From Candidatus Latescibacterota bacterium (GTDB lineage: Bacteria > Krumholzibacteriota > Krumholzibacteriia > WVZY01), in the NCBI GenBank assembly GCA_011772205.1, contig WVZY01000067.1, forward strand, positions 1-64,000: a DNA stretch of 64,000 nucleotides, given 5' to 3'. The notes under the pieces were generated by a model. It ran no database searches and had not been told where the DNA came from. It was given only the letters and a program-made list of their open reading frames with translations. This document shows, one piece after another, positions 42,407 through 47,460 of this stretch (position 1 is the first letter of the stretch; every line of letters begins with the position of its first letter). The translations under genes and the position numbers were made by a program.

Positions 42407-43972
42407 TTACCGGAAAAAGACCAGGGTGACGAGAATGAAAAGCGGGAACAGGATCGGTAAACTGTATTTGATCGTGAACCCAAAGAAGCTCGGCATTTTT
42501 ATGCCCGCCTCTTCAGCAATGCTTCTCACCATGAAGTTTGGCGCATTTCCGATGTAAGTGTTCGCTCCCATGAAGACCGCGCCGACGGAAATGGCCTTGA
42601 GAAACAGTTCCTTCTGGGCAATCAGCGCGTTGACGGCGTCATGCTCGACGATGCCAGCGAAAAATTTTCCAATTACCGTGTTGAAGAACGTCAGGTAGGT
42701 CGGCGCGTTGTCGAGAAAACTCGATAGCAATCCGGTAATCCAGAAATAATGCACGGGCTCTTCTAGCGATTCCATTATGAACCTCAACGACCCGTCGGTT
42801 CCTGCTTTGAGCATTTGGATTGCGGGGATGATCGTCATGAAGATGCCGGCGAAAAGATACGCCACTTCCTTGATGGGAAACCACGTGAATTCGTTGTCCT
42901 TGTGGATTTGAGGATTGGTTGTCTTGAGGGAGAGAATCCCCATAAGTAGCAAAAGACCATCCCGAAGAAGAAACTCGATTTTTAGTTCGATGCCGAGAAC
43001 GGTAACGAAACCGGCTTTCCAAAGACCACTCATCAAGACGGAGCCGATGATCCCCAGTAGAAAAACGACGTTGTGAGCGCCCTCCACGCGAACCGGCTTT
43101 CTCTCGAAAGTCTCGGGCTTCGTTTCTTTTCTGTAGTAGTAGCTGTCGAGGGCATAGAACAGGATGAACAGGAGGACAACCATTAAGCCCATGTGCGGCA
43201 AGAGGGTGAAGGTCCAGAAGAACGGTACATCGTGGAGGAATCCGAGGAAAAGCGGTGGATCTCCAAGAGGAGTGAGCGATCCGCCGATATTGCTCACTAA
43301 AAAGATAAAAAACACGATGACGTGGGTTTTTGCTTTTCGCCAGTCGTTGGCCCTCATTACGGGCCTTATGAGGAGCATCGAGGCGCCTGTGGTCCCCATC
43401 CATGAAGCGAGCACGGTACCAAAGAGCAGGAACACGAGGTTGAGTTTGGGCGAACCCTGGAGCGTCCCCTTGATGTACAGCCCGCCGGATACGGTGAACA
43501 GTGCCCAGAGGAGAATGATGAAGGGGAAATATTCGATGAAGTAGGTGTGCAGGATGTGATGGATCGCTTCCCCGCCAAAAACGGCGAGAAACGGACCTGC
43601 AAAAATGACCGCCCAAAAGGCCGACACTTTCGGGAAATGGTCGTGCCACCAGCGCGGCGCGAAGAGCGGGAAAAGGGCGATGGATAGCAATATTCCAATG
43701 AATGGAAGGATCGTCCAGATTGGGAGCAGAGCACCGATGCGGCTGTGCTCGTGATCGCCTTCGGCACGATTATGCTCTGCTTGGTATTCCTCTTGGTCCT
43801 GAGCGGCGCTTGCTCTCCCCGTACTGTCCGCGATGTAGCCATCGCCGGGCGCTCGTGCACCGGCCTCGGAGGGGAACGAGGAGAGGCCAGCGATTAAGGC
43901 GACGGTCAAAATCCAGATCGGGAGGATTTTCGATAGAAATGTATGAGAACACAACGACTGGCGAAAATTCAT
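42407..43972 (-). CDS. NhaD-type sodium/proton antiporter
   Basis: From the ATG at 43972 (GGAG 6 bases upstream) the protein is 521 residues. A GTG four codons earlier overlaps that ribosome site and is less likely. A signal-like N-terminus is followed by an acidic/His-rich loop (about 45-70) and about 12 transmembrane helices of the ion transporter (IT) superfamily, with WMGTTGASMLLIRPVMRAN, NIGGSLTPLGDPPLFLGFL and LDNAPTYLTFFN, the characteristic re-entrant motifs of NhaD. It exports sodium in exchange for protons at the inner membrane. Confidence 0.9.
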   Translation of the reverse strand: MNFRQSLCSHTFLSKILPIWILTVALIAGLSSFPSEAGARAPGDGYIADSTGRASAAQDQEEYQAEHNRAEGDHEHSRIGALLPIWTILPFIGILLSIALFPLFAPRWWHDHFPKVSAFWAVIFAGPFLAVFGGEAIHHILHTYFIEYFPFIILLWALFTVSGGLYIKGTLQGSPKLNLVFLLFGTVLASWMGTTGASMLLIRPVMRANDWRKAKTHVIVFFIFLVSNIGGSLTPLGDPPLFLGFLHDVPFFWTFTLLPHMGLMVVLLFILFYALDSYYYRKETKPETFERKPVRVEGAHNVVFLLGIIGSVLMSGLWKAGFVTVLGIELKIEFLLRDGLLLLMGILSLKTTNPQIHKDNEFTWFPIKEVAYLFAGIFMTIIPAIQMLKAGTDGSLRFIMESLEEPVHYFWITGLLSSFLDNAPTYLTFFNTVIGKFFAGIVEHDAVNALIAQKELFLKAISVGAVFMGANTYIGNAPNFMVRSIAEEAGIKMPSFFGFTIKYSLPILFPLFILVTLVFFR

Positions 43973-44093
43973 CTTATTCTCCACAATCCACTTGTGATGT
44001 GGGAGGAATGTGCCGCGATGGGCTTATCTAAGCAGGGAGATTACAGAAATTTAGGGAAAGAATCGCTTTTAGGCAAGCAAGAAGTTTGAATCC

Positions 44094-45752
44094 CTAGCGT
44101 TTGTATTTTTTCATGAGATGCTGCCGGAGCTCGGGATGAATGCTGCTTCTTCTCAGGAGCGACTCGATATCGGCCTTCGTGAGGTCGGTAACGTAATCCA
44201 TCGAAATGGTCGGTGGTGTTCTGGGATTGCTGAGAAGTGCGAGCTTCGATCTCAGCGAGCTGAAGAGGGACCGCCGTTTTCCTATGGCCCGGAGAACCTC
44301 TTGGTTTGTATTGTGATTGGTGGCAATGCGGTAGCCACGGTCCGTGGTGTTGATGTGGGAAATGGTTTCCCTCGCCACTTTGTAGATTGGGTGCATGGAG
44401 AGCTCGTACCAGAAATGGCCGTCGCGAGCGAGCTTTCTCAGTACAACGGGTGGAATAGCCTGGAAGTCCGGTGCTTCACTTTCCCTCGGCCCGACTCTTC
44501 TTTTATCTTCCCGGAACTTTTTAGCGTAATCATCGAGCAAGGAGTCCTTGACACCGAAGAGTTTCTCCTTGATCTCCAAGTAATCCAGTATCGCAACGAG
44601 CTTCTCGAAGTAGGAGTCCTCCATCAGAAAGTCGAGCTGCATGAGAATTCGGATAATGCCGCGCGCGTAAAGGACTTCTGATCGCGACGTAAGGTAAAGA
44701 AGCCTCCGATATAAGGCGTTGAAGAAGACCTTACGGAGGTTTTCATCAAAACGGTTTGTTCCTACCACCTGCTCCAGCTGGCTCAGTATCGTTGCGCATG
44801 GTACTGCTTGCGGAGTGACAACTTTCCAAAATCCTCCAATATCCACATTAGCCGCTGCGTAGCGCCGCACCTCGTTATCCGGGTGGAGCATGAGACAGCG
44901 AAGCAGCTTTTCACGTTCCCTTATGTTGCTTTTCGCAAGGCCATTGATGATGCGTCGGTTGGAACCTCCGATTCCAATCCGTGTTTCGTTCGAGTCACTC
45001 TCTTCGAAAAATCCAACAACCTTTGCAAACGAACCATTGAAGCCGTTCGGAAGGCTTTTCGCCAGCACGTCCAGAATACGGGATTGTGCCCTTCCCCTCC
45101 AGTAATCGTTGGCAACAACGATTTCGGGACGCTTCCATAGTCCGACTGCGAATGGAGACGAAGTCAAGCGGTCCTCCTCGATAGCGGCGGCGAACAGATG
45201 CCGGAGGGCGCCGGTCAGCTCTTCGATAGCATCCTCTACATCCAGGTCGTCTCCATAACTAAGTGCTTCGAGGGCGTTGGTGAACGCTTCTTGATCATGA
45301 TGTTCGGTATCCGCATCGATGAATGCATCCCAGGGATGATGCTCGAGATGCCCATTCCACCGCGTACGAGCACGCGTGTAGAGGGCGGATAGCGGTTCCC
45401 CCACCAGATTTTTCAAGCTCACATGAATGTCATCGAGAAGCAGGTTCCTTCTGGGAACCATTCCGGTGAAGGCCAGTCTCGATGTTTCCGCAAAGCAGCG
45501 GTTCACCGCTTTCCAGTTGATGTACGCGTCCTCCAGGAAAGGCAAGGCAATCCCGACGCTCCCGCCCGTACCTTCAATGAGATGTTGTTCTCCGAGAATA
45601 AGCACGCCGCGGCATGCTTTCTTGAGGTCCGAAGCTTTTTCCATCACATTGGCGAGATCGCATCCACTCTCCCGGGAATTCTCGATGGCGGAGATGAGCC
45701 GCTCTCTGAATGGTCTGATATCTACCGGATCGCTGGGAAGATTCTTACCCAT
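44094..45752 (-). CDS. Large helical hypothetical protein (HEAT/ARM-like)
   Basis: The 552-residue protein has no signal peptide or membrane helix and matches no family I recognise. It is predominantly helical, and a segment at about 285-310 (LRCLMLHPDNEVRRYAAANV) reads like a HEAT repeat. The C-terminal half contains further helical pairs (LARDGHFWYELSMHP resembles a second repeat). Upstream is a very AT-rich stretch (45753-45830) that may hold its promoter. It could be a scaffold or regulatory protein; no neighbour suggests a job. Confidence 0.6.
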   Translation of the reverse strand: MGKNLPSDPVDIRPFRERLISAIENSRESGCDLANVMEKASDLKKACRGVLILGEQHLIEGTGGSVGIALPFLEDAYINWKAVNRCFAETSRLAFTGMVPRRNLLLDDIHVSLKNLVGEPLSALYTRARTRWNGHLEHHPWDAFIDADTEHHDQEAFTNALEALSYGDDLDVEDAIEELTGALRHLFAAAIEEDRLTSSPFAVGLWKRPEIVVANDYWRGRAQSRILDVLAKSLPNGFNGSFAKVVGFFEESDSNETRIGIGGSNRRIINGLAKSNIREREKLLRCLMLHPDNEVRRYAAANVDIGGFWKVVTPQAVPCATILSQLEQVVGTNRFDENLRKVFFNALYRRLLYLTSRSEVLYARGIIRILMQLDFLMEDSYFEKLVAILDYLEIKEKLFGVKDSLLDDYAKKFREDKRRVGPRESEAPDFQAIPPVVLRKLARDGHFWYELSMHPIYKVARETISHINTTDRGYRIATNHNTNQEVLRAIGKRRSLFSSLRSKLALLSNPRTPPTISMDYVTDLTKADIESLLRRSSIHPELRQHLMKKYKR

Positions 45753-46778: not shown

Positions 46779-46830
46779 AAGAAACCTGCTGAAAGCGAAG
46801 CTGCATCCGCGAATGGGAAAGGGGAGCCCC

Positions 46831-47460
46831 ATGCAGATCGACCTCTTCGATGCCGAACTCAATCAGATCCTTTCTACGCAAACTTATGCGGAATTCTCCG
46901 AACTGTTGACAAAATACGACTGCCAGCGCTGCACGCTATGTTACAGCCGCTCGAAAATCGTTATCGACAGGGGAAGCTCAAAAGCGGATATCCTGGTCAT
47001 CAGCGAGCGGCCGGGTGACAACGAAGATCTCATAGGTAAGGCGTTCGTTGGAAGAGCCGGCGAGCTCCTGGACAAAATGTTCGCTGCAATCGACCTTGAC
47101 TCCAACAAGCATCTTCTCATTACCAATGTGGTGAAATGCAAGCCGGAGGTCGATCGGTCGCCGACGAAAGATGAAGTCGAAGCTTGTTTTCCTTTTCTGG
47201 AAAAGCAAATCAAGCTCGTAAGTCCCAGAGTAGTAGTACTCCTTGGTGCTGTGGCACTGAAGTGGGTGGATCCCTCGCGCACGGACATCAAGATGGAAGA
47301 AGAAGCGGGCAAGTTCTTCACGCTTTCTCGATTCCCGGGCATTCAGTTAATGGTGATGTATAATCCGGCTTTTCTTTTGAGAGACCCGCGCAAGAAAGTG
47401 GATACCTGGGAGCATCTCAAAAGTCTTCAGACCTATCTGCAGCAAGAAAAGCTGCTTTGA
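46831..47460 (+). CDS. Family-4-type uracil-DNA glycosylase with variant motifs
   Basis: From the ATG at 46831 (GGGGAG 4 bases upstream) the protein is 209 residues. Four cysteines for a [4Fe-4S] cluster are at C31, C34, C103 and C119 in the family spacing. NVVKCKP, DEVEACFPFLEKQI and IGKAFVGRAGELLD are typical. However motif I reads SERPGDNED where the family has GEAPGxxED, and motif II reads YNPAFLLRDP where family 4 has HPA/HPS, so the His is Asn (N178), as in MUG-type enzymes. It excises a damaged base from DNA, but the substitution may alter the substrate. Confidence 0.85.
   Translation: MQIDLFDAELNQILSTQTYAEFSELLTKYDCQRCTLCYSRSKIVIDRGSSKADILVISERPGDNEDLIGKAFVGRAGELLDKMFAAIDLDSNKHLLITNVVKCKPEVDRSPTKDEVEACFPFLEKQIKLVSPRVVVLLGAVALKWVDPSRTDIKMEEEAGKFFTLSRFPGIQLMVMYNPAFLLRDPRKKVDTWEHLKSLQTYLQQEKLL

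Follow-up and report, generated by a model that had tools for sequence, protein, structure and literature searches.

A predicted uracil-DNA glycosylase of Candidatus Latescibacterota belongs to a small family-4-derived subfamily altered at three coupled positions

Introduction

The residues with which family-4 uracil-DNA glycosylases act have been mapped in Tth UDGa, for which PMC5387724 assigns roles to E41, G42, N80, N89, which positions the water, and H155, which serves the leaving group. In this enzyme Glu47 excludes thymine, Phe54 stacks and Asn80 reads uracil, and the substitutions G42D and H155S lower the activity by about two and by three to four orders of magnitude, respectively. The same paper places the catalytic Asp64 of UNG at the position of G42, gives Asn as the third residue of motif I in family 2, and describes the motif II histidine as missing from families 2 and 6 as well (PMC5387724).

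In UdgX, three positions have changed jointly relative to family 4, with Q53 in place of A/G, R107 in place of P and H109 in place of N, and residue 53 touches the loop that bears residue 109. According to PMC10359453, this coupled change makes a family-4-like enzyme self-crosslinking, and the enzyme is used in genome-wide uracil methods. Here we describe a gene in a 64,000-nucleotide stretch of DNA from a Candidatus Latescibacterota bacterium (contig WVZY01000067.1, positions 1 to 64,000, hereafter the window), whose product and its relatives, the SERPG clade, carry a different triplet at the same coupled positions.

Gene limits and active-site motifs

The longest open reading frame at the locus spans 46813-47460 on the forward strand (215 amino acids). 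Because the closest homologues begin with MQ(I/V)DLFD or VQADLFD, the ATG at 46831 is the likely start, with the stop at 47460, and residues are numbered throughout from this ATG along the 209-aa protein (Table 1). The initial annotation had placed a uracil-DNA glycosylase at 46999-47370, a span shorter than the gene. Its wording of motif I, SERPGDNED (Ser codon 47002-47004, Arg codon 47008-47010), and of motif II, YNPAFLLRDP (Asn codon AAT), agrees exactly with the translation, and the cluster cysteines are conserved as it said: Cys31, Cys34, Cys103 and Cys119 occur in all nine clade members, the window protein counted. It overlooked Asp108, which stands where family 4 has Asn89, and Glu106, at a position that is mostly Pro in family 4, as well as the SERPG sister proteins that retain the motif II histidine. 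Within motif I, Glu59 corresponds to Tth E41, Arg60 to Tth G42 and UdgX Q53, Glu65 to Tth E47 and Asp66 to UdgX D59. SERPG and YNPAF occur together in two further genomes (G004 and G005), a recurrence that, with the profile scores given below, rules out chance or a sequencing error.

Table 1. Positions, in the window, of the SERPG-clade gene and of its features
Feature	Position	Strand	Remarks
SERPG-clade UDG gene	46831..47460	+	209 aa; start chosen from homologues
QIDLF, residues 2-6	46834..46848	+	presumed resemblance to beta-sliding-clamp binding motif
Cys31 and Cys34, first [4Fe-4S] ligand pair	46921..46932	+	alignment
Motif I, SERPGDNED	47002..47028	+	Ser58, Glu59, Arg60, Glu65, Asp66
Phe72 (Tth F54), uracil stacking	47044..47046	+	F in 126/126 alignment rows, window protein counted twice
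Asn99 (Tth N80), uracil N3/O4 recognition, kept	47125..47127	+	alignment
Cys103, cluster ligand	47137..47139	+	alignment
Glu106-Val-Asp108 (family-4 P-x-N89; UdgX R107-I-H109)	47146..47154	+	Glu106 and Asp108 in 9/9 clade members
Cys119, cluster ligand	47185..47187	+	alignment
Motif II, YNPAFLLRDP	47359..47388	+	Asn178 (Tth H155) at 47362-47364; alignment

Family assignment and predicted fold

The protein scored 108.7 bits against the Pfam UDG model (cut-off 24.3) and 154.6 bits against the family-4 model TIGR00758 (UDG_fam4, cut-off 125.3), and stayed under the cut-offs of the UdgX model TIGR03914 (106.3 bits, cut-off 189.95) and of the archaeal type-4 model (138.9 bits, cut-off 250). An AF2 model built from 44 aligned sequences reached a mean pLDDT of 96.0. 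Its best match among known structures was Tth UDGa (Z 27.3, rmsd 1.3, 182 residues aligned), and Z values were 25.8-27.0 for other family-4 entries, 23.3-25.1 for UdgX, 20.1 for the UDGb entry 2d3y and 14.2-14.8 for MUG.

Three defining features of strict family 4 fail in the window protein: motif I GE(A/G)PG is absent, all nine clade members carrying SERPG, the water-positioning Asn89 is replaced by Asp108, and the catalytic histidine of motif II (HPA/HPS) is replaced by Asn178. Its profile match, predicted fold and cysteines mark the protein as family-4-like. It retains Glu41, Glu47, Phe54 and Asn80 of Tth UDGa as Glu59, Glu65, Phe72 and Asn99, respectively. By comparison with the residue map of Tth UDGa, the half of the predicted pocket that reads the base matches a uracil enzyme, whereas the half concerned with the sugar, the water and the leaving group is rebuilt.

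Membership, distribution and phylogeny of the SERPG clade

The clade is rare, and the nine sequences found come from MAGs of the Latescibacterota/Krumholzibacteriia type and from two Verrucomicrobia. Orthologues were present in G001, G002, G004, G005, G007 and G012 when 58 genomes and 80 of the phylum, the window's own included, were searched; in the search of the 58 genomes their identity to the window protein was 63-75%, and contigs end within the G001 and G002 genes. When one genome per species was scanned with two short peptide patterns, which makes the locus count a lower bound, nine loci were returned, seven of them (L033-L039) in the clade. The record titles of these seven name Candidatus Latescibacterota (three), Krumholzibacteriia (one), Chitinivibrionia (one) and Verrucomicrobia (two), and five of the seven are the very genes already found in G004, G005, G012, G002 and G001. 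Three of 387 sampled genomes of the Verrucomicrobial phylum passed E 1e-50, and only G081 among them is in the clade; the other two matches lie outside the listed exceptions of the 228-domain alignment described below. The Verrucomicrobial order concerned has the clade gene in two of 11 genomes, and none of 398 Pseudomonadota genomes gave one, in a set that held no positive control. Phage and plasmid origins were considered and rejected, all 43 matching phage records and all 437 matching plasmid records being below 60% identity. A search of viral contigs with two short patterns gave no confirmed relative.

From 266 hits, 228 non-redundant domains were kept after removal of the over-long L110 and of sequences contained in others, and stretches totalling less than 25 bits were omitted from their alignment; these domains are a non-random sample, made up of the best hits per search and of hand-picked lower hits. 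The tree was built from 86 of these family-4-like domains, with columns 58-60, 106-108 and 178, which hold the traits, removed. The nine members form one side of a branch with a support of 100/100, present in 100% of 200 bootstrap trees. The stem of the clade measures 1.17 changes per column, compared with 0.89 for UdgX, and its tips are short. Trees that unite the clade with UdgX (p-AU 0.475) or with the UDGa of its own lineage (p-AU 0.192) were not rejected. The initial annotation had raised the idea of a distinct subfamily, which these results uphold: the gene is a member of a small, constrained, family-4-derived subfamily with a branch depth comparable to that of UdgX. No paper pairing SERPG with a uracil-DNA glycosylase was found in a literature search that left out most subscription papers, and the clade may already be published.

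Coupled substitutions at positions 60, 106 and 108

Position 60 is A in 142 of the 228 family-4-like domains, G in 40, Q in 28, R in 11 and another residue in five, the remaining two being gapped. The coupled triplet is mostly A/G-P-N in family 4, Q-R-H in UdgX and R-E-D in the SERPG clade, in which Arg60, Glu106 and Asp108 are found in nine of nine members. For UdgX, the triplet rests on PMC10359453 and on Q and His in 28 of 28 UdgX rows; one alignment has an Arg opposite Glu106 in 27 rows, while a second alignment misplaces the loop and has mostly Phe there. All 11 domains with Arg60 also have Asp108. Two of them, L217 and L218, lie outside the clade in a remote lineage, from the archaeal phylum searched, so that the pairing is confined to that lineage and the SERPG clade. 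Asp108 without Arg60 occurs in four of the 228 domains (L171, L172, L174 and L239), and Glu106 outside the clade in two (L175 and L185). The motifs of L217 and L218 read GERPTARAD and CRDPDR, with Pro rather than Glu at 106 in what is a remote alignment. Three domains from the Pseudomonadota search (L226, L228 and L232) have Val or Pro at 53, His at 109 and no UdgX loop.

Fourteen columns are specific to the clade when it is compared with 180 ordinary sequences, a set chosen by A/G at position 60. The clade has Ala159 where 145 of the 180 hold Arg, which suggests that an Arg may have moved from position 159 to position 60. Given that UdgX residue 53 touches the loop of residue 109 and that UNG has its catalytic Asp64 at the same position, Arg60 would naturally be expected to touch Asp108 or Glu106.

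The motif II asparagine

Motif II is readable in seven clade members, three of which have Asn (the window protein, L004 and L005) and four His (L006, L007, L037 and L039, all reading YHPAF). In the wider alignment, Asn occupies this position in eight of 224 readable domains. The five outside the clade are the Verrucomicrobial paralogues L188 and L190-L192 and the remote L193, and Asn is accompanied by loss of cysteines in four of the five. In the alignment, L188, L190, L191 and L192, from four genomes, have none of the four cluster cysteines; they read VTDAPGLYEE and YNPSYLLR. As His is found almost throughout the rest of the family, the R/E/D residues were probably acquired first and Asn178 later in one branch; the branch between the members with Asn and those with His is supported at only 94/58.

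The initial annotation had likened the asparagine to that of MUG-type enzymes and linked it to a changed base preference. The analogy was not supported: motif I has Arg60 where family 2 has Asn (PMC5387724), and the predicted fold matches family 4 at Z 26-27 and MUG at Z 14-15. The proposed change of preference fares no better, as Asn99, Phe72 and Glu65, which recognize uracil and keep thymine out, are retained and the asparagine does not define the clade. On these comparisons, Asn at motif II is by itself an unreliable guide to MUG-like specificity. A non-exhaustive literature search, with most subscription papers outside it, met no proven glycosylase that carries this substitution.

Conservation alongside an ordinary UDGa

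The window genome encodes both the SERPG protein and an ordinary UDGa, which are 33.5% identical to each other. An ordinary UDGa was matched in G000, G001, G002, G004, G007, G012, G080 and G081, the G001 copy having an in-frame stop, and all nine clade genomes appear to hold one. In G005, assembled as a single contig, it was seen only as two partial matches about 668 kb apart (C1:1382449-1382712 and 714478-714738), which may be the halves of the ordinary UDGa; an assembly error or a broken gene could account for the distance, or the matches belong to two separate genes.

In six of six genome pairs compared, the SERPG protein is better conserved than its UDGa paralogue, with respective identities of 76/66, 64/51, 63/52, 81/71, 90/82 and 56/45%. 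The pair L004-L005, both with Asn, has a dN/dS of 0.05; values ranged from 0.05 to 0.28 in the 13 pairs for which they were finite, the deeper pairs reaching 0.28, and dS was undefined in eight of 21 pairs through saturation of synonymous sites. Decay of the clade gene is unlikely in view of its conservation in the six pairs and of the low dN/dS of L004-L005. Glu59, Glu65, Asp66, Phe72 and Asn99 are invariant in the clade, and so is Arg184 wherever it can be read.

Gene neighbourhood and N-terminal peptide

An upstream MBL-fold hydrolase is common to the window, L033, L034, L036 and L038, and a downstream M49 peptidase and LigA to the window, L033 and L034, the sequences of L036 and L038 ending inside the UDG gene. 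None of the three is found in the flanks (up to 6 kb) of L035, L037 and L039, so that no partner is conserved throughout the clade, and synteny was set aside as a clue to function. The window also encodes, at 44094-45752 on the reverse strand, a 552-aa protein with no Pfam/NCBIfam match at E 0.001, which has homologues of 45-48% identity at the same place in L033, L034, L036 and L038. About 1.4 kb downstream of the clade gene, L039 has a homologue (38-39% identity) of the membrane protein encoded at 42407-43984 of the window.

Residues 2-6, QIDLF, resemble what we take to be the consensus of beta-clamp binding peptides. QxDLF is present in five of six assessable other clade loci, and the sixth, which is Verrucomicrobial, has xFDLF. 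Among ordinary UDGa of the same class, 13 of 48 have QxxLF about as far from the first Cys; it is absent from all 91 sequences of the group 'other', from all 26 UdgX and from the three assessable ordinary UDGa that belong to the genome and family of the window. The QxDLF tail may tether the clade protein to the sliding clamp.

Proposed function and alternative readings

We propose, with moderate confidence, that the gene encodes a second chromosomal predicted uracil-DNA glycosylase, which descends from a family-4-like ancestor and has been remodelled where the nucleophile attacks. Judged from residue comparisons and the structural model, uracil excision by altered chemistry would be the most likely function of the SERPG protein. 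Uracil would be flipped out and then read with Asn99, Phe72 and Glu65. Arg60, at the place of the catalytic Asp64 of UNG, would face the sugar/water site and hold the motif III loop through salt bridges to Asp108 and/or Glu106, and Asp108 would serve as the acid that activates the water or stabilizes the sugar cation. In family 4 the place of Asp108 is taken by Asn89, which positions water, and in UdgX by the attacking His109. With Asp108 as the catalytic acid, the part played by the motif I Asp in UNG would come from motif III. With this help, the enzyme could dispense with the motif II histidine, and the sub-branch of the window protein would have put there an Asn that can still hydrogen-bond uracil O2.

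Arg60 and Asn178 could instead leave a weak or dead enzyme, as the severe effects of G42D and H155S in Tth UDGa suggest. The changes in motifs I-III would then stop excision while recognition stays, making the protein a uracil-DNA binder that acts as a sensor or marker of uracil or AP sites and leaves repair to the ordinary UDGa carried by the same genomes; Q53, at the Arg60 position, is reported to dampen excision by UdgX (PMC10359453). We consider this fairly unlikely, because the clade shows no variation at Glu59, Glu65, Asp66, Phe72, Asn99 and, as far as it can be read, Arg184, because the protein is under constraint, and because the catalytic histidine persists in four of the seven readable members, which speaks against inactivity as a trait of the entire clade. 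At the other extreme, the protein might have drifted neutrally at a few positions and remain an ordinary family-4 UDGa, in line with its TIGR00758 score. That is extremely improbable given R/E/D in all nine members, from at least two NCBI phyla, the long stem with short tips and the ordinary UDGa already in the genome. A MUG-like base preference, by which the motif II Asn would allow excision of hypoxanthine, xanthine or other bases, can point to that Asn in three of the seven readable members and to the like absence of the histidine from families 2 and 6 (PMC5387724). With Asn99 and the thymine-excluding Glu65 retained, Arg where family 2 has Asn in motif I, a fold closer to family 4 than to MUG and an Asn that is not clade-defining, we regard it as very unlikely and rejected it as the main account.

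Asp108 might also act as more than an acid. Oriented by Arg60, it could itself attack C1' and form a stable or slowly hydrolysed abasic-site ester, as a natural acid-nucleophile version of UdgX. Asp108 does sit at the position of the crosslinking His109, and UdgX Asp56 and Asp59 are present as Asp63 and Asp66. Among the fold matches, PDB 6L6S is titled 'UdgX mutant H109E crosslinked to single-stranded DNA', so that, going by this title, an engineered protein with an acidic residue at the position equivalent to Asp108 can become bonded to DNA; no paper pairing UdgX with H109E was found in a literature search with most subscription papers outside its reach. However, the clade has neither the R-loop (KRRIH) nor Arg107, Asp is shorter than Glu, the TIGR03914 score (106.3 bits) is below its cut-off of 189.95, and Asp63 is not invariant, being Val in L005. 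We therefore hold this chemistry to be quite improbable. If it did operate, carboxylate attack by Asp108 would also free the enzyme from the motif II histidine. That the family-4 scaffold has in this clade a third catalytic state next to those of UDGa and UdgX, as a naturally evolved carboxylate-nucleophile glycosylase whose ester-linked adduct would be stable or be resolved by water, is a similarly improbable proposition.

As a second natural clade altered at the positions known from UdgX, the SERPG clade, with R-E-D and, in one branch, no catalytic histidine, would offer a clean test of the assignment of residues to steps, and possibly a new reagent.

Comparison with known systems

The window protein shares with UDGa (Tth 1ui0/1ui1) the predicted fold (Z 27), the four cysteines and the equivalents of Glu41, Glu47, Phe54 and Asn80, at 33-34% identity in the structural alignment. 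It differs in having Ser for Gly40, Arg for Gly42, Glu for the Pro before x-Asn89 and Asp for Asn89, and, in its sub-branch, Asn for His155. With UDGb (family 5, 2d3y) it has the superfamily fold in common (Z 20.1), at a lower identity of 24%. The window sub-branch resembles MUG/TDG (family 2) in having Asn-Pro at motif II, and the superfamily fold is shared (MUG Z 14.2-14.8), whereas the clade has the cluster cysteines, Arg rather than Asn in motif I and a predicted uracil pocket of the family-4 kind. UdgX, like the SERPG clade, is a family-4-derived clade altered at the coupled positions 53/107/109, and its Asp56 and Asp59 have equivalents in the window protein. The clade differs from it by R-E-D in place of Q-R-H and by the absence of the R-loop insertion, and the window protein further by the change of the motif II His to Asn.
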